DNA of 64,000 nt from Clostridium sp. 12(A) (GTDB lineage Bacteria; Bacillota; Clostridia; Lachnospirales; Lachnospiraceae): positions 1,302,001-1,366,000 of the forward strand of contig JAGI01000002.1 of assembly GCA_000526575.1 (NCBI GenBank), read 5' to 3'. The notes beneath the pieces were generated by a model. It did not search any database and was not told where the DNA came from. It was given only the letters and a program-made list of their open reading frames with translations. Of the stretch, positions 49,758 to 58,931 are shown in pieces. A program made the translations under genes and the position numbers. The first letter of the stretch is position 1; the number at the start of each line of letters is the position of its first letter.

Positions 49758-50630
49758 TTATACCTGACCGCCTTCTACTACCAGATTTTCCGGATCAATC
49801 TCATCTCCGTAAACCGGCTTTAAGGTCTCTTCAAAGTCTTTATGGAAGAACTGCTCGTCTCCAAGAGTCTTGATTTCTTCATTGATCCACTCTAACAGTT
49901 CTGTGTTGCCTTTCTGAACAGCTGCTGCAATGGTATCTGTATTACCAATAGATTCAATTCCTACGGTGAAGCCTTTGTTTTGAAGTGCCCATGCAAGAAC
50001 CTCAGTGTTGTCAGTTGAGAAAGCATCTCCTCTTCCATCTAACAGAGCATCGTATGCTTCCTGGTACTCGTCAAACTTTAACAGCTTGATTTCAGGATGA
50101 TTCTGAGAGAAATAAGTTTCTGCAGTGGTTCCCTTTACAACGATCAGAGTCTTATCCTTTAAATCTGCTGCATCCTTAATGAGTTTGTCATCAGGAGATA
50201 CGACTCCAAGAGCTACCTTCATATATGGAAGAGCAAAATCAACCTGCTCTTTTCTTTCGTCTGTTACGGTGAAGTTAGCAAGAATTACATCTACTTTAGC
50301 AGATTTTAAATATTCCACACGGCTTGCAGCCTCAACGTATACAAATTCTACTTTATCCTCGCTGCCAAGAAGGTCCTTTGCAAGACGCTTTGCAAAATAG
50401 ACATCATAGCCCTGAATCTTACCATTGGCATCTACATAGCCAAATGGATTCTTATCGCTGAATACACCAATTTTAATGGTCCCTGATTCCTTGATCTCAG
50501 AAAGTGTTCTAGCCTTTGCTGATGGGCTCTGAGCACCACCTGTACTGTCCTTAGCTGGAGCACTGCAGCCAGCTAAAAGCCCTGCTGCCATAGTAATACC
50601 TAATAATGCACCTAATAATTTCTTTTTCAT
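49758..50630 (-). CDS. Amino-acid (probable cyst(e)ine) ABC transporter binding lipoprotein
   Basis: 290 residues: signal peptide with lipobox LLAGC, Ser/Ala linker, then a family-3 solute-binding domain. The stretches GYVDANGKIQGYDVYFAKRL, EAASRVEYLKSAKVDVILAN, QVDFALPYMKVALGV and the ending EEQFFHKDF-like DEQFFHKDFEETLKPVYGDE follow the Campylobacter cysteine receptor CjaA closely, as I remember it. Together with the Cys-rich leader peptide, this points to cysteine or cystine as ligand. Last gene of the operon permease-permease-ATPase-binding protein. Confidence 0.92.
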   Translation of the reverse strand: MKKKLLGALLGITMAAGLLAGCSAPAKDSTGGAQSPSAKARTLSEIKESGTIKIGVFSDKNPFGYVDANGKIQGYDVYFAKRLAKDLLGSEDKVEFVYVEAASRVEYLKSAKVDVILANFTVTDERKEQVDFALPYMKVALGVVSPDDKLIKDAADLKDKTLIVVKGTTAETYFSQNHPEIKLLKFDEYQEAYDALLDGRGDAFSTDNTEVLAWALQNKGFTVGIESIGNTDTIAAAVQKGNTELLEWINEEIKTLGDEQFFHKDFEETLKPVYGDEIDPENLVVEGGQV

Positions 50631-50651: not shown

Positions 50652-51404
50652 TTATACCGCTTCATAATGAAACGTATTTAAAAACTGTTTGGCTCGCTCT
50701 GTCTGGGGGGAAGCAAAGAATTCCTCGGGTTTTCCCTCTTCCACCACCAGCCCCTGGTCCATAAACAGAACCCGGTCTGACACTGCTTTGGCAAATTCCA
50801 TCTCATGGGTAACGATGACCATGGTCATTCCGTCCTTTGCCAGCTCTAATACTACCTGCAACACCTCTCTTACCATCTCAGGGTCGAGAGCCGCTGTAAT
50901 TTCATCAAGGAGCAGAATCTCCGGATGCATAATCAGCGCTCTTACAATGGCTACTCTCTGCTTCTGACCGCCGGATAGCTGCCTTGGGTATGCATCTTTT
51001 TTATCCAGAAGCCCGACTCTCGCTAAAAGCTGTTCGGCCTCCTTAATCAGTTCCTGCTTCTCTCTTTTTTGAACCTTTGAGGGTGCTAAGAGAATGTTGC
51101 CTAAAATAGTGAGATGAGGAAACAAATCATAGCTTTGAAATACCATTCCTATTTTCTGACGAATGGAATAGGCATCCTTTCTGTCACTTTCAATTACCTC
51201 ATCCTTAAACCGGATGGTACCGGAATCAATGGGCTCCAGCATGTTAAGACATCGTAAAAAGGTACTTTTTCCGCATCCGGAAGGGCCTACAACGACGACG
51301 ACTTCTCCTTTTTCCAAAGAAAAGGAGATATCTTTTAAAACAGGCTGCCCGTTCTCATATGATTTCTTCAGATGTTCCGTTGTTAATATTACTTCCTGCT
51401 TCAT
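50652..51404 (-). CDS. Amino-acid ABC transporter ATPase (GlnQ/TcyC type)
   Basis: About 250 residues: Walker [11 protein letters not shown]-loop, signature [15 protein letters not shown], Walker [13 protein letters not shown] and His switch VTHEM. Energises the two permeases encoded upstream. ATG at 51404 (weak AAAGG upstream); a TTG at 51413 is too close to that site. Note ITAALD where most polar amino-acid ATPases have PTSALD. Confidence 0.94.
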
Positions 51405-51409
51405 ATTTA

Positions 51410-52087
51410 TCAATCCTTTATTTTTTTATCTAGCATTGCTGCTGCTCTGGAAAATGGGAAACAGATTGCAAAATACATAATAAAAATGACTCCGTAGACC
51501 CAAAGAGCTGCATCAGGAACCGTATACCTGGATGCGTCGATGATCTGTTTTCCAACCTTTACTACCTCAATGACTCCTATGAGCACCACCAAAGACGTGG
51601 TTTTTATCATTCTCGTTAAGAGGTTCATCACCGATGGAAGAAGTCTCCGCACAGTCTGTGGGATAATGATATACCGGTAAACCTGCAGCTTAGTCATACC
51701 TAGGCCAAAGCCGCTTTGGTACTGATGAACTGGAATGGACTGGAGAGCACTTCTTACCAGATCGCCCATCTCTGCCGCACCCCAGAAGGTAAACACAATG
51801 ACAGCGGCAAAGGAGCCAGAAAGATTAATATTCCAATGCTTTGCAGCGCCGAAGTAGACCAGGAACAAAAGAACCAGCTGAGGCATGATTCTCACAACCT
51901 CAAGATAGAGCCTGCAAACAAACCGTATTGGTTTTTTCGGGCTGGTCATTACAATTCCAAGAAGCATTCCAAGAACAATGGAAAGTGCCATGGAGATTAC
52001 GGCAATCCGTAAAGATTCCCAAAGCCCTCCGCAAAGTCTTAAAAAGTTATTTCCCTGGAACAGCACTTGAATTCCCAAATTCTGCAT
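51410..52087 (-). CDS. Amino-acid ABC transporter permease, subunit 2
   Basis: 225 residues, about five transmembrane helices and the His/Glu-family permease loop ([24 protein letters not shown]). AAAGGAGGG precedes the ATG, which lies 41 bases inside the upstream permease gene, so the two are translationally coupled and likely form the heterodimeric channel. Confidence 0.93.
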
Positions 52088-52727
52088 AACGGACCCTCCT
52101 TTCTACCCAGGAACAGAGTAAGGATATTGGCAGAAGAATGATCAGATAAGCCGTTACCAGCATAAACAATGCTTCATCTGTTTTGTAATAGATCCCAATT
52201 AAGTCCTTTGCCACAAACATCAGATCCGCAAGGGCTACGGCACTGAATACTGAGGTTTCCTTAATCAGGAAAATAATGTTGGCACAAAATACAGGTACTG
52301 AGGTGGCTATGGCCTGCGGCAGAATGATATGTTTAAATACCTGACCCTTGGTAAGCCCCAGGCTTAAGCCTGATTCTGATTGAATCTTAGGCACCTGCTC
52401 GATTCCTGTACGAAACGCCTCTGCCATATAGCTGCCTCCCAAAAAGGCCAGACCAGTTATGGCACACCCCTCTGAGCTTAACACGATACCCAGCTTTGGC
52501 AGCCCGAAGTATAAAAAGAATAACTGGATGAGGAGCGGTGTATTTCTGGATATTTCTATGTAAGCATTTACCAAAAGGCCCAGCACCGGTATCTTAAATA
52601 CTTTTACAAGGCTGCACAAAAGCCCGATCACAGTTGAAAGCAGAATCCCAAGAAAGGAGATTCGGAGTGTAATTCCTGCCGCTTCCACGTATAACGGTGC
52701 ATTGGCACGAATGAATTCAAAATCCAT
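52047..52727 (-). CDS. Amino-acid ABC transporter permease, subunit 1
   Basis: 226 residues, about five transmembrane helices, EIASRNTPLL-like EISRNTPLLIQLFF and the loop SLGLTKGQVFKHIILPQAIATSVP. First structural gene after the Cys-rich leader; a short ORF with a strong ribosome site overlaps its start and may couple translation. AAAGGAAA lies 8 nt before the ATG. Confidence 0.93.
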   Translation of the reverse strand: MDFEFIRANAPLYVEAAGITLRISFLGILLSTVIGLLCSLVKVFKIPVLGLLVNAYIEISRNTPLLIQLFFLYFGLPKLGIVLSSEGCAITGLAFLGGSYMAEAFRTGIEQVPKIQSESGLSLGLTKGQVFKHIILPQAIATSVPVFCANIIFLIKETSVFSAVALADLMFVAKDLIGIYYKTDEALFMLVTAYLIILLPISLLCSWVERRVRYAEFGNSSAVPGK

Positions 52728-52761: not shown

Positions 52762-52790
52762 AAAATCCTTCCTCCCTGATTGTTATTCAT

Positions 52791-52826
52791 AAAAAGGAAG
52801 CAGGTACACGACATACCTGCTTCCTT
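52791..52826 (-). terminator. Attenuator terminator upstream of the cyst(e)ine transporter operon
   Basis: Perfect 13-bp stem AAGGAAGCAGGTA / TACCTGCTTCCTT, 7-nt loop, T-run at the minus-strand end. It sits between the Cys-rich leader peptide and the structural genes. The 5' arm can pair instead with TGCTTCTT (minus strand, 52913-52906) right after the Cys codons, a candidate antiterminator of eight pairs. Confidence 0.75.
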
Positions 52827-52841
52827 CCATCTATTTTCTCT

Positions 52842-52973
52842 TTAACAAGATAAATTTGAGGATTTCAGATATCGATGCGCACACAAATAAGCTGTATCTC
52901 TTCTTAAGAAGCATCTACAGCAACAGCAACACTTCATCAGTTGATTCTTGTTCTGTTTGCAGCTCATCTTCAT
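52842..52973 (-). CDS. Cys-rich leader peptide of the transporter operon
   Basis: 43 codons starting with ATG, AAGGAG 8 nt upstream. Cys at positions 5, 15-19, 21, 31 and 43: nine of 43, with five consecutive codons TGT TGC TGT TGC TGT, then AGA and TGC. Basic otherwise, no domain. Too short and skewed for an ordinary protein; it looks like a ribosome-stalling leader that senses charged tRNA-Cys. Downstream of it are the terminator hairpin and the cyst(e)ine-type ABC genes, and upstream a perfectly spaced promoter. Confidence 0.72.
   Translation of the reverse strand: MKMSCKQNKNQLMKCCCCCRCFLRRDTAYLCAHRYLKSSNLSC
52891..52921 (-). promoter_or_regulatory. Leader hairpin 1:2 of the Cys attenuator
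   Basis: On the minus strand GCTGTA, the last bases of the Cys run, pairs with TACAGC, with the palindrome CTTCTTAAGAAG inside. A ribosome stalled at the Cys codons would cover GCTGTA and free TGCTTCTT to pair with the terminator arm. Confidence 0.5.
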
Positions 52974-53010
52974 ATCCTAATCTCCTTATTCATACTATAT
53001 ATATATGTTT

Positions 53011-53039
53011 ACTATACTGTGACCTCTTGTATTTGTCAA
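53011..53039 (-). promoter_or_regulatory. Promoter of the Cys leader and transporter operon
   Basis: Minus strand: TTGACA (53034-53039), 17-bp spacer, TATAGT (53011-53016), about 38 bp upstream of the leader peptide start. Confidence 0.75.
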
Positions 53040-53210: not shown

Positions 53211-55154
53211 TTATGAGTTTTTAATGCGGAACTCTTCAATTAATTCCTTAAGCTGCTGCATCTGGTTTAACAAATCCCCGCTGGTTGCAGCACTCTCTTC
53301 TGCTGTTGCTGAGTTTGCCTGGGTAACCATGGAAATCCTTTGCATTCCCTCCTCAAGCTCTGTGACGCGGTTGGACTGATTTTCTAAGGATTCGGAGATT
53401 TTGGCAACCAAAGTATTGATACTGCCGGTCTGCTCCACTATGGTCTTAAATACACCTGCTGTCTGTTCCGTATTCTGTTTCCCCTGTGCCACAGATTCTA
53501 TAGTGCTGTGGATCAAGTCTGTCGTCTGCTTTGCTGCATCCGCACTCTTTGATGCAAGCTGACGGACCTCATCTGCCACTACAGAGAAGCCTTTTCCGGC
53601 ATCTCCTGCACGGGCTGCCTCTACCGCAGCATTTAAAGCCAATATGTTGGTCTGAAATGCAATATCATCGATAATCTTAACTATACTTTGAATTCGTTTG
53701 GAAAACTCATCAATGTTAGCCATGGACTGTAACAGCCGTTCCATCTCCTCATTGCCTCTTTGAGTCTCCAAAAGTGCGGATTCCGTAGCATCTTTCATGG
53801 ACAGAGAGTGCTGTGCATTTTCCTTAATATAACTGGATACCATCTCTAAGGAATTGGTAAGTGCTTCTGTAGTCGCTGCCTGCTCTGCTGAATTTTCTGC
53901 AAGATTTCTACCAGTTAAAGCCACCTGTTCCGAGCTGCATCTTACCTGATCTGTGGATTCCGCTATGTGGAAAAGGGTAGTGTTAAGAGAATTAAGTATC
54001 TGCTCCAATGCGTCTTGAATGGGAACAAAATCACCCTTATACTGGACTTCACTACTGATTGTTAAATCCTTGGTAGCCACTCCATGTAACACTGCTGAAA
54101 TATCTGATATATAAGTGCGCAGTCCGCAGATGGTATTTTGAAGTGCCAGTAGAAGCCGGGCGATCTCATCCTTTCCGCCTGTCTCAGGTACCTCTAAAAG
54201 TAAGTCTCCCTCTGCCAGCTTCTCAATTCGGCGTGTCGCCAATACAATAGGCTCTGTAATCTTATTGGCAAAGATACGGGTGATTAAAATAGCCAGCAAA
54301 ATAAGGGCGATTCCAGTTAAGGCACACATTACTATGGTAAAACGTACTGCTCCTTCAATCTGAGTCACTGGCATGGTAACTGCAACATTCCAGCCTTCCG
54401 GACCGCTTAATGGGGTGAAGCCTACTAAACGGCGGGCCCCTTTATAAAAGCTAAATCCCGTCCCTGTGTTTCCTTCCATCATCTGTTTAAATATCTTTGA
54501 TGTAGGGATATAAGAGGAATCTTTCTTTGCAAGTTCGATATAATCCTTGGGATTAGTTACATCATCGGGGTTTGGATGAACGACGGTGACTCCATTGCGG
54601 TCAACGACAAAGGCGTATCCACTTTCACCCACTTTAATCTTTGTCAAGCCATCCATAATGGTCTGGTATGGCAATGCTCCGTATAAAACCTTCCCCGTAT
54701 TACCAATAGGCGCTCCGATATAAAGAACAAGCTTATTCTCTGAATTTACAAATGGATTAGAGATATAGGTTACCCCGTTCGCTGCCTGCTTAAAGAATTC
54801 CTGGTCTGCGATCTGGTCTCCCTTATCATTGGTTCCCTTGGAATCTGCAATGGTTATGTAGTCAAAGCCCGCTGCCGCTGCCTCTTCACTCAGAAGGAGC
54901 TTCTGATCGGCGGTAGATGTCTTCCCATCGGTCAGAAACCCTTTGGAAGCAGTGATACTAAGTTCACTGCGGTAAATATTCAGCACAGAATCAATCCCCT
55001 GCTGATACGCTGCCGCAAGATATGAGGAATTCTTTTTTGCTTCTTTCATGGAACTATTATAATAAAGAAAAGAAGAAATGGTAGTCAGAAATATGACGGT
55101 AAAACCTAATAATAATGAAATAAAAAGTAATAGCTTGTTTTTTAAATACTTCAC
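53211..55154 (-). CDS. Methyl-accepting chemotaxis protein with Cache sensor
   Basis: About 647 residues: transmembrane helix near the N-terminus, extracellular dCache-type domain ([35 protein letters not shown]), second helix (about 275-300), HAMP and a signalling domain with the CheA/CheW hairpin [22 protein letters not shown]. It senses a small ligand and sets CheA activity. The start is a GTG at 55154 with AAGGAGG; the frame continues upstream without a ribosome site. Transcribed from its own promoter about 200 bp away. Confidence 0.93.
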
Positions 55155-55329
55155 GATTCTATGCCTCCTTAGTATAACCGAAAAGCCTCCCTCATTTTTA
55201 ACACCCTCATTTTCTGGCGGAAGCATCTGTGACAGGCTGGTTTCCTGCTGTCATAGTTCATCCGGATCAAGAAGTATTTTTACGGTATCAAAAACTATCG
55301 TACTATGTTTTTCGACTTGTATTTTGCAT

Positions 55330-55518: not shown

Positions 55519-57597
55519 TTAATAGAGAACAAATTTGCTCACTTCATTATTAAGAACCTGGGCCTGGGCTGCAAGCTCCTCACTGGATGCAGAGCTTTCT
55601 TCTGCAGTAGCTGCATTGGTCTGAACTACAGCAGACACCTGGGAAAGTCCCTGATTAATCTGACTGATAGAGGCGGCCTGATCCGAGGAGGCTTTGTCAA
55701 TCTCTTGAATCACTTCTACTACCAGCTGTGATTTTAATGCTACATCCTGAAGAGTTTCTGAGGTCTCAGCAGCCATTTTCTCGCCTTCTGTTACTGTAAC
55801 GGTAGAAAGTCCGATCAGTTCCGAGGTCTGTTTGGCTGCCTCTGCTGATTTTGCAGCAAGATTTCTGACTTCATCGGCAACCACTGCAAATCCCTTACCT
55901 GCTTCGCCTGCTCTGGCTGCCTCCACCGCAGCATTTAGTGCAAGTATATTTGTCTGGAAAGCAATGTCCTCAATCACCTTAGTGATGCTTGATATTTTCT
56001 CAGAAGCCTGACTGATTTCATCCATAGCTGCGTTAAGCCTTTTCATATGATGATTGCTTTCTGTCAGACCGTCTCCAGCCTGGCGAACATAATCGGAAGC
56101 CTTTCTTACATTCTCTGCATTCTGTTCTGCCTGCATGGAAATGCTGATAATAGAAGCGCTCAGCTCCTCTACAGTAGCCGCTTGTTCCGTAGATCCAGAA
56201 GCAAGGGCCTGGGCTGCAGAGGAAACCTGCTCTGCTCCAGTATTCACCTGATCGGCCGTAATTTTTATGGCTGTGAGAGTTTGATTTAAGGAATGAGATA
56301 TCTGTAACAACGCTTCTTTAATCGGCTGAAACTCTCCTGCATAATCCTGTTCCAGATCTATTTTGATATCTCCTCTTGCCATGGTTTCAAGAACAGAGGT
56401 GATTTCCTTTATATATCCAATGTAGCGGTTTAGCTGGACCACCGTACGGTTTAAGGCATTGGCAAGCTGTCCCGTCTCATCCTGAGATTTGACATCTGCT
56501 GATATATCAAGCCTTCCATCTGCAATCTGATTCGCGGTATTGGTCAGTGCCTTTAATGGTGCAACAATTCCCTTTGATACAAGGAAGATCATTCCCACTA
56601 CCAGGGATACTGCAATCAGGAATATAACGGCCATTGCAGCAGTAATCTTATTATACTCACTATAAAACTCTTTTAAGGGAAGTCCTGTTGCTACCATCCA
56701 GCCGGTATCACCAATCTTACTTACATATCCGTGTACCTCTACTCCATGGGAAGCATACTGAATTTTACCTTCTAAAGAAGTTAAAAGTGCCTGTTTAATG
56801 CCATCAGACATATCCTGTTCGCTGACCTTCTTATTGATCATCTCCTCCTTGGGATGATAGATGATCTGTCCGTCTGCGGAAGTAACTATGTAAAATCCGG
56901 TATTTCCAAGCTGATAAGAACCGATGGTCTTTTTAAGTCCATCCAAGGAAAAATCAATGCCTACTGCTCCTACGATCTGACCGCCATTTCCTGAATACAC
57001 AGGGGATATGATGCTTACGATCTGGGCCTTTGTGGTAAAATCTTCATAGGGCTCCGTCATTACTGTTTTCTGTTCTTTTAACAATGTCTGGTACCAGGGC
57101 CGATCTGATATCTGATAGTCTGCATCGGATACAAACCCATTGGATTGTGCAAGCTGGCTGCTGTCAAAATCAGAAATCCAGATGCTAAGAATATTTTCCT
57201 GATCCGTATCACTATTGTTTTTCAATGACTGGATTACATCTGCAAAATCCTGACTATCCTGGATTTTAGTACCTGGCTTTAAGTCTGTAAATAATTTTTG
57301 TATCTGCACACTTTTGGAGAGCTGATCGGCACTGTTTCTATACCGGTCGAAAAATTTCTCCATCTCAATGGAAGCTGTCTCTGATTTTGCCTCCAGCTTC
57401 TCCTCTGTCAGCTGATCCACATTCACCCGCACCAGATTCAGTAAAATAAGCCCCACGATACAATAGGATAAGACGACTGGAACTCCTATAAAAATAAGAA
57501 TTTTAGCCAGTAGACTTTTTAGGCCAGTTGCTTTGGCCTTGGCACCAGAAGAACTGCTTTCTTCATTACTTTTCCTTTTTTTCTTACGTTCAGACAT
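55519..57597 (-). CDS. Methyl-accepting chemotaxis protein with Cache sensor
   Basis: 692 residues. Basic cytoplasmic N-terminus ([17 protein letters not shown]), helix at about 27-50, dCache sensor ([49 protein letters not shown]), second helix (about 315-335), HAMP, signalling hairpin [21 protein letters not shown] and a C-terminal Ala/Ser-rich helix. Closely related in its signalling half to the third receptor gene at 61-63 kb, which suggests a duplication; an AT-rich insert now lies between them. Confidence 0.93.
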
Positions 57598-57763: not shown

Positions 57764-58931
57764 TTATAAACACATACTTTCCAAATTTAAGACGGAGTAA
57801 TCGACGGCGAATGGTGCTTCTTGTGTATTCATTATATACAAATTGTTAAATTTACTTATGGCTGCCTTTTTATGCTCCATTAACGAATGGGCATATACAT
57901 TAAGAGTAATTGAAACTCCGGAATGTCCCAATAATTCACTGACGGTTTTTTATATCTACCCCTAACTCCAAGGCTCGGGTGGCGAAGGTGTGTCTGATCG
58001 TATGGAACTTGCGGTCAGCGATTTTATTATCCTTTAATATTCTTTTAAACAGATTCTGAAACCTCCTAGGATCATAAGGAGTATCATTTCCAGTAAATAG
58101 AAAATAGTTATTCGTACCGTTATATAAACTGCTATTAATTAACAGCTTCAGAAGAAATTCAGGAAGAGGGATTTTTCTGATCGATTTACGGCTCTTTGGA
58201 ACGCCTATATGCAAGGCTGTTTTGCTATCATTGTTCTCAAATACTCTTATCCTGGATACAGTTCTCATAATAGACATAGTTCCTGATTCTATATCAATAT
58301 CGTCCCACTTAAGTGCGCAAAGTTCTCCCAATCGTATCCCGGTATAAAAGCATAAAATTATACCAATGGCACTTGAATCATCACATTTAAGCGCTCCTTG
58401 TTCAATCTTCTGCTGTTCTTTTGTCGTAAATACCTGCACTTCTCCACATTCTGTATTTGGCAGCTTTATAAGATCCAAAAGTTCATGTAGTTGAGGGGAG
58501 GCTTTTAATATCTCTTTTAAAGCAATTTTAAAGATAGAAAATATTTTCTTTTTCGACGTATCTGCCAAAGTATCTTTTTCTCTTATGTATTTTACAAAGC
58601 TGGAAACGGATTCTTTTGTTATATTATTATGTTCTTTCTTTGTGAAAAAGGGTATTATGTGTTTGTAGACACATCGGTAATAACTCTCATATGTAGACGG
58701 CTTTACACGCATCGAAACTTCTCCCGTAAGCCAGCAAAGGAAAAGTTCCGTGGCATTATTACTTTTTACAGATGTTTTGCTTATATTATCTTCTTTAAAA
58801 TCCTTCATTTTCTCTTTAACTTCCCTGTATGTTCTGGCATAAAAATAATGATATTTTCCATTTTTATTTAGACTCCTCCCCTCCCAACGTCCATCTTTCC
58901 GTTTATAAATGTTTTCTCCTCTTCGTGCCAT
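57764..58931 (-). pseudogene. Tyrosine recombinase/integrase, frameshifted before the catalytic Tyr
   Basis: N-terminal AP2-like arm-binding region (MARRGENIYKRKDGRWEGRS, YFYARTYREVKEKMKDF), SAM-like core-binding domain, and catalytic domain with the first Arg in TGIRLGELCALKWDD, Lys loop and HTIRHTFATRALELG. The frame then hits a stop at 57936 because of six A at 57946-57951; with five A it would continue as TVSELLGHSGVSITLNVYAHS, supplying the second His and the nucleophile Tyr, to a stop at 57764. The protein as given lacks its active-site Tyr, so it is inactive unless the extra A is a sequencing error. Confidence 0.85.

Follow-up and report, generated by a model that had tools for sequence, protein, structure and literature searches.

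A cysteine-codon leader before a probable cysteine importer operon and a related family of Cys/Met leaders in Lachnospirales

The leader locus and the importer operon

The window, by which we mean the whole 64,000-nucleotide stretch of Clostridium sp. 12(A) DNA that was analysed, carries four importer genes on its minus strand, preceded by a short open reading frame (ORF) rich in Cys codons. The features are as follows, in the direction of transcription.

53011..53039, minus strand: sigma-70-type promoter, TTGACA-17-TATAGT, with 11/12 consensus matches
52982..52985, minus strand: Shine-Dalgarno sequence GGAG of the leader ORF, read from the sequence
52960..52985, minus strand: segment 0, ribosome-binding and start-codon region, the alternative partner of segment 3
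52842..52973, minus strand: leader ORF with ATG start and 43 codons, peptide MKMSCKQNKNQLMKCCCCCRCFLRRDTAYLCAHRYLKSSNLSC, nine Cys
52917..52931, minus strand: regulatory Cys codons 15-19, TGT TGC TGT TGC TGT (CCCCC), followed by Arg-Cys
52891..52921, minus strand: hairpin P1 (1:2), GCTGTA...TACAGC with CTTC/GAAG inside, covering the end of the Cys run
52860..52872, minus strand: segment 3, ATATCTGAAATCC (UAUCUG...), proposed antiterminator strand for the first arm of the terminator
52794..52826, minus strand: intrinsic terminator hairpin, segments 4 and 5
52791..52795, minus strand: U-tract of the terminator, read from the sequence
52047..52727, minus strand: permease 1 of the importer (PF00528)
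51410..52087, minus strand: permease 2 of the importer (PF00528)
50652..51413, minus strand: importer ATPase (PF00005), whose best NCBIfam match, TcyN, is under its cut-off
49758..50630, minus strand: binding lipoprotein, family 3 (PF00497)

Every element named in a sequence-only reading of this DNA, that is, the promoter, the ribosome site, the 43-codon ORF with nine Cys, the 13-bp terminator and the four genes, was found on this strand. The terminator has 13 pairs, 6/13 of them G-C, with a 7-nt loop and a T run after it. The leader region (52775-53005) folded more stably than 200 of 200 shuffles (z -4.0). Four TGY codons in a row occur at 29 places in the genome, two of which are the window leader. 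This poly-Cys search of the genome found no leader besides that of the window, the sole one of the 29 places where an in-frame, Shine-Dalgarno-led start precedes the run.

Compared with proteins of solved structure, the binding lipoprotein was nearest to 1XT8 (3.3e-95) and 2YJP (4.4e-93), and distant from 2YLN (1.3e-12); we take these to be CjaA, the gonococcal (Neisseria) cysteine receptor and the gonococcal cystine receptor, respectively. The part of PMC4178425 concerned with CjaA states that it binds cysteine and that its role in cysteine import is unproven. The proximity to 1XT8 and 2YJP agrees with the earlier description of the importer as CjaA-like. The operon probably encodes a CjaA-type cysteine importer, cysteine being the presumed ligand as judged from these relatives of the binding protein. 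Upstream of the importer and on the same strand lie two adjoining chemoreceptor genes (53211-55226 and 55519-57597; Pfam dCache and MCPsignal). A phage-type integrase gene (PF00589) is located at 57936-58931 and may be split, as a short ORF at 57764-57931, which has no Pfam match, appears by eye to continue it.

Conservation of the leader was examined in Lacrimispora, a genus of Lachnospiraceae, Lachnospirales, in the NCBI taxonomy. A permease of the operon was detected at E<=1e-60 in 22 of 25 genomes of the genus, with the own genome and those of the same species counted. Conservation in relatives had been proposed as a check on the leader, and of the 21 Lacrimispora loci examined, 20 indeed have a Cys-run ORF ahead of the orthologous permease gene. 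In G013 (L045), the operon and a promoter-like sequence are present, and the leader ORF and the attenuator are absent. The run follows the motif C-C-x-C-R-C-F with variations, in three leader types, CCCCCRC, CCCCRC and CCFCCRC. Its Cys codons vary in the third position (TGT/TGC) and are also replaced by TAT and AGC in clades A and B, while TTT (Phe) stands inside the run in all eight leaders of clade C. The residues around the run, CRCF.RRDT, are kept in the genus.

Of the 20 leaders aligned from the genus, 18 have the promoter element TTGACA, and the sequences taken from G014 and G006 end before that position. P1, the TATCTG segment and the terminator were kept throughout the alignment, with single exceptions for TATCTG in G009 and G002. 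A DNA pattern made from the conserved P1 region matched 15 stretches, 12 of them window-type leaders and three of them chance matches. The ORF extends past segment 3 in G000, G021, G007 and G023; in the window it does so after a two-base difference from its relatives. At the position corresponding to 52989-53011, just past the -10 element, some relatives of clade B carry a palindrome, TAAACATATATGTTTA, possibly a site where a repressor binds across the start of transcription.

A Cys/Met leader family before sulfur amino acid genes

A covariance model built from 20 leaders of the genus (R1) was searched on 397 genomes of the family. At E<=0.1 it gave 15 matches, of which seven were leaders and seven non-leaders by inspection, the last one being a same-species copy of a non-leader. 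One of the leaders, from another genus (G175), has the Cys run CCCCCMC and precedes the orthologous operon there; in four genomes, the leader is rich in Met and its downstream gene is metN or metQ. A second model that included these finds (R2) gave 35 matches at E<=0.1 in 33 of the 397 genomes. All 15 matches at E<=1e-3 precede sulfur amino acid genes; eight of these were new, and the other seven were training loci or their same-species copy. Among 14 inspected of the 20 weaker matches (E 1e-3 to 0.1), seven had leaders rich in Met/Cys (M/C) and seven had none.

In 383 genomes of the order, a third model (R3) gave 47 matches at E<=0.05 in 40 genomes. At E<=1e-3, an M/C leader was seen by inspection in 20 of 24 matches, and in 11 of 15 when the training loci and the genus copies of the window leader were excluded. 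No M/C leader was seen in three exceptions at this threshold (G517, G046 and G684). In G592 (L292), the right arm of P1, segment 3 and the terminator are kept before the same importer, and the Cys run is lost. The weak matches of R3 (E 1e-3 to 0.05) had M/C leaders in 4 of 23 cases. When R3 was applied to 391 genomes of the class, 16 matches fell outside the order, and no M/C leader was found in the 15 inspected (all but L348). Within the order, another family (G565) has a Cys-run leader before an orthologous cysteine-importer operon, and such leaders stand before cysK, metN and metA in further families.

Since the training sets of R2 and R3 consisted of Cys/Met leaders, their recovery of such codons is partly by construction; the independent checks are a survey of metN genes and the identity of the downstream genes. 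The latter comprise the cysteine importer, cysK, metN/metQ, metA and genes for cystathionine-type enzymes. TIGR01139 supported cysK above its cut-off in L307, L110 and L298, and NF047918 supported metA above its own; one downstream protein matched a sulfur carrier family below cut-off. Several gene names (metN, metQ, leuS and others) rest on the MetN search or on similarity judged by eye. On these comparisons, the window leader is a member of a family of Cys/Met leader RNAs, found in several taxonomic families of the order upstream of sulfur amino acid genes. The earlier claim of a cysteine attenuator stands in that a Cys leader attenuator is supported here, and was too narrow in that the family includes Met and precedes sulfur amino acid genes at large.

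The metN survey made no use of the RNA model. It covered 133 metN places in 118 of 260 family genomes, with up to 750 nt upstream of each, and looked for a Shine-Dalgarno-led ORF in which at least 5 of 7 consecutive residues, the start excluded, are M or C. Such a leader was present in 32 of the 133 regions, and none was seen at this threshold in the other 101. No region passed the same criterion on the reverse strand (0/133), none did in five shuffled sets, and none of 406 background stretches did; at 4 of 7, there were 38 on the forward strand and 0 on the reverse. When pairs of residues were compared in the survey, M+C was the commonest of all, followed by M+N (22) and L+R (20). Met outnumbered Cys in 27 of the 32 metN leaders. 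The share of Cys was 0.5-1.0 in seven leaders of cysteine genes versus a median of 0.37 in the 32 metN leaders (p 3.5e-5). The codon identity of the run, Cys or Met, follows the downstream gene.

The own genome holds further leaders of the family, located as follows.

contig C2, near 1163876-1164686 and 2992519-2993329: Met/Cys leaders before two metN genes (L202, L233)
contig C2, near 1799246-1799404: leader before cysK (L307), with KCCCQAVC

One of the two metN leaders passes at 5 of 7 and the other at 4 of 7.

Terminators were scanned after 61 leaders, a set that is our own selection from the hits and in which leader length ranges from 23 to 59 codons. A hairpin with a T tail was detected by script after 52 of the 61. 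When at least 10 pairs were required, 45 of 61 leaders and none of the 305 shuffled stretches had such a hairpin; with the minimum lowered to 6 pairs, the loosest setting, 80/305 shuffles had one. The script found no terminator for the cysK leader and the second metN leader of the own genome; for these, a hairpin ahead of a T run can be made out on inspection.

Two tandem Met-run leaders with terminator-like hairpins (L290 and L311; G600 contig C121, 6723-6850 and 6925-7051) precede a single metN gene. Two Cys/Met leaders (L296, L310) are followed, at about 250-390 nt, by a NifB-like gene of the radical SAM class, assigned by TIGR01290 below cut-off for L296 and by resemblance for L310; the link of this target to cysteine is not obvious. 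In G021, a leader with CCCKTVYMKM (L309) lies about 255 nt upstream of a gene for a binding lipoprotein that matched no NCBIfam model at 1e-20 and is possibly part of an importer of a sulfur compound.

RNA pairings in the leaders

The hairpin 1:2 proposed in the sequence-only reading holds within the genus, where 98.5% of the cells of P1 were paired in 20 sequences, with slid controls at <=54.5%; across the wider family, it showed no partner-specific fit (z -0.79 over 44 loci). Partner specificity was measured by comparing own with permuted partners (44 loci, 4000 permutations) in a free duplex search within regions that we defined. Eight of the nine Lacrimispora cysteine leaders were omitted from these tests, avoiding near-copies, and the nine of 61 leaders without a script-found terminator were outside the pairing tests.

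For the pairing of segment 3 with segment 4 (3:4), mean duplex energy was -12.3 with own versus -9.7 with permuted partners (z -7.4, p 0.0002); like the other permutation tests, this one counts every locus as independent although the genomes are related. Permutation within subfamilies gave z -6.1 (p 0.0002, the least possible with 4000 permutations). The own partner was better than the mean of the others in 36 of 44 loci, and 19 of the 51 loci taken singly had a 3:4 better than shuffled sequence (p<=0.05). Examples are TGTTATGATACCTG with CAGGTACATAAC in G072, TATTAGTCCACCTG with CAGGTACTAATA in G007, and ATGCGCGT...ACCTG with CAGGTACGCGC in G218. Segment 3 also fitted its own segment 0 (0:3), with z -5.5 over 44 loci and -6.9 in 32 core loci; this fit was absent in one metN subfamily (z +1.3). 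The control pairing 0:4 had no partner-specific fit (z -0.5, 44 loci).

No covariation above shuffles was found in the aligned seven-column core of 3:4. Changes on both sides of this core occurred in 0 pairs in alignment A3 and in one in A6, where shuffled columns did equally well; A6 (24 rows) replaces A5 (25 rows, one likely spurious). What supports 3:4 is the flexible part by which it extends into the terminator loop, and not the column core. An antiterminator that excludes the terminator is supported by the permutation fit of 3:4, with column counts giving no support and the own leader being weak. In a free duplex search, the terminator arm of the window leader preferred another partner (E -10.9, z -0.3), and the case for 3:4 is among the weaker ones here. 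A pairing of the right arm of P1 with segment 3 had been considered from the own sequence and was dropped because Met-type leaders lack the complement, as judged by eye.

Folding of 17 sequences from Cys and Met leaders showed P1 and, in the full untranslated leader, 0:3 with a mean probability of up to 0.57; with a ribosome on the run, the six best pairs of 3:4 reached 0.53-0.84. Segment 3 starts a median of 37 nt past the stretch that holds the codon run and spans or borders the stop codon in 43 of 52 leaders (starting at most 12 nt after the stop and ending at most 15 nt before it). By this geometry, the ribosome would cover segment 3 on finishing the ORF and would leave it free when stalled in the run. 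In the window leader, the stop codon is about 16 nt beyond the 3' end of segment 3, which the ribosome must traverse. In folds of the window RNA, 3:4 belongs to the minimum-energy structure until the second arm of the terminator is made, after which the terminator is most stable; the switch must therefore be kinetic and act during transcription.

The sequence-only reading had assigned the role of antiterminator to TGCTTCTT, which lies directly past the Cys run, by pairing with the first arm of the terminator. Within the genus this pairing has some merit: its six core pairs form in most sequences, with G-U in clade C, and 84.9% of its cells are paired, slid controls reaching <=62.3%. At early stalls it wins in G012 (0.98-0.99), one of the nine Lacrimispora leaders, and reaches 0.59-0.61 in G002. 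However, two outer pairs are unformed in 14 and 9 of the 20 genus sequences, and pairings of this type had no partner-specific fit over 44 loci (z +1.26). In stalled states of the window leader, it reached <=0.13 versus 0.53-0.61 for segment 3, and a ribosome on the later Cys codons would, given the size of its footprint, cover TGCTTCTT. We gave this antiterminator up beyond the genus, and regard attenuation through it as very unlikely.

Proposed mechanism, alternatives and meaning

We consider it highly probable, on comparative and computed grounds, that the window leader is a ribosome-mediated transcription attenuator sensing charged tRNA-Cys through segment 3. The locus holds a Shine-Dalgarno-led short ORF, a codon run for the presumed amino acid of the operon and a terminator before the first gene. 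The parts of the leader, their conservation, the spread of the family, the match of codon to gene and the partner-specific fits of 3:4 and 0:3 are all computed observations. The central proposal of a Cys-codon leader attenuator before a CjaA-like importer is supported.

Stalling and readthrough, which we infer, would proceed as follows. RNA polymerase would make the leader, and a ribosome would translate the Cys-rich peptide. With ample cysteine, the ribosome would clear the Cys run, reach the end of the ORF and cover segment 3, so that the terminator would form and the importer genes would be left untranscribed. When Cys-tRNA is scarce, the ribosome would stall in the Cys run, about 30-40 nt before segment 3; free segment 3 would pair with the first arm and the loop of the terminator, and the polymerase would read on. 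If the leader is not translated, segment 3 could pair with the start-codon region, and the terminator would form. Met runs in related leaders would play the same role for methionine genes.

Stalling might instead be caused by the nascent peptide or another signal, as in an arrest peptide responding to redox state, a metabolite or an antibiotic, and not by a lack of charged tRNA-Cys. That CRCF.RRDT is kept around the run in the genus would suit such a peptide. Outside the genus, however, the flanks diverge while the Cys/Met runs stay, their identity following the downstream gene, and we hold this explanation to be quite improbable. The ORF could also have a function as a small protein rich in Cys and Met, perhaps one that binds metals or thiols and is expressed together with the importer; it looks translated, with a Shine-Dalgarno sequence, and Cys runs could bind metal. 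Yet its length (23-59 codons in the 61 scanned) and most of its residues vary, terminators of at least 10 pairs follow 45 of the 61 leaders, and the 3' part of the ORF co-varies with the terminator, which makes such a protein exceedingly unlikely.

We give hardly more than a slight chance to a metabolite- or tRNA-binding RNA, such as a riboswitch or a T-box-like element, in which the ORF would be incidental. The strong fold and the conserved stretches beyond the Cys run would fit it, but the codon run matches the gene, and Rfam 15 at gathering thresholds detected no family except two tRNAs in the window and four sets of related loci, in scans that covered 41 of the 133 metN regions (20 + 20 + L233). 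Such elements are detectable elsewhere in the same genome: there were 14 T-box matches, 12 of them over cut-off and none in the window, and one SAM riboswitch (RF00162) outside the window, before a gene that by eye is metK-like. The genes below the 12 T-boxes over cut-off are tRNA-synthetase-like in 9 cases, by eye, with one confirmed metG. T-boxes and the SAM riboswitch share control of amino acid genes by premature termination with the mechanism proposed here and differ from the window leader in that no covariance model of theirs matched the window.

The leader attenuator proposed here resembles known systems in part. Classical ribosome-mediated attenuators control the trp, his and leu operons of proteobacteria. 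Common to them and the window leader are a short ORF with the regulated codons and a terminator, together with, in the model proposed here, an exclusive antiterminator and the position of the ribosome as the switch. Unlike them, the window leader concerns sulfur amino acids and Lachnospirales, its proposed antiterminator strand lies around the stop codon of the leader, and the alternative partner is the start region of the leader itself and not the regulatory codons. In Firmicutes, control of amino acid genes is usually described in terms of T-boxes, riboswitches and proteins.

The poly-Cys leaders of actinobacteria are likewise short ORFs with Cys runs, placed upstream of cysteine genes; the title of Canestrari et al. 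2020 reportedly calls them leaderless. That study is cited in passages of PMC9094748 and PMC13236596, the latter describing the mycobacterial case, in the passage concerned, as translation attenuation. The relevant section of PMC1262725 predicts the actinobacterial leaders and reports no conserved terminator-like hairpins in the Cys-leader regions of Mycobacterium. The window leader, in contrast to this mycobacterial type, has GGAG and a 13-bp terminator with a T run, and is neither leaderless nor free of a terminator. In section 9, PMC1262725 also states that none of the aminoacyl-tRNA synthetase genes of Firmicutes is under classical attenuation. The uORFC-8-2 motif, which a passage of PMC8632094 describes upstream of cysS in Rhodobacterales, resembles the window leader in its uORF with consecutive Cys codons, in a stem that includes these codons and in a second stem resembling a terminator. 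It differs in having two tandem Cys codons, in belonging to alphaproteobacteria and in preceding a tRNA synthetase gene; Met variants are not mentioned in that passage. In literature on leaders and attenuation, searched by title and abstract and with most subscription papers outside its scope, no description of the family was found. This and the Rfam searches agree with the earlier remark that the arrangement is little described in clostridia. The principle is known; what appear to be new are the family, its range over sulfur amino acid genes of Lachnospirales and the scheme in which the start site pairs with the stop site.

Taken broadly, we think it reasonably likely that a sulfur amino acid regulon of Lachnospirales (the cysteine importer, cysK, metNIQ, metA and cystathionine enzymes) is controlled by one related family of leader-peptide attenuators. 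The run, whether Cys, Met or mixed, would set what is sensed, and in the course of evolution one run would have replaced another while the RNA scaffold was kept. A mixed run would respond to starvation for either of the sulfur amino acids, and the start site of the leader would serve as an anti-antiterminator. In the own genome, the importers and cysK would use this control, and the tRNA synthetases T-boxes. A widespread family of attenuators that names the nutrient by its codon run would mean that sulfur amino acid uptake in these bacteria has one more level of regulation. The leader peptide alone would then help to assign the substrates of unnamed importers, and the family would offer a natural series on how attenuators change their specificity.
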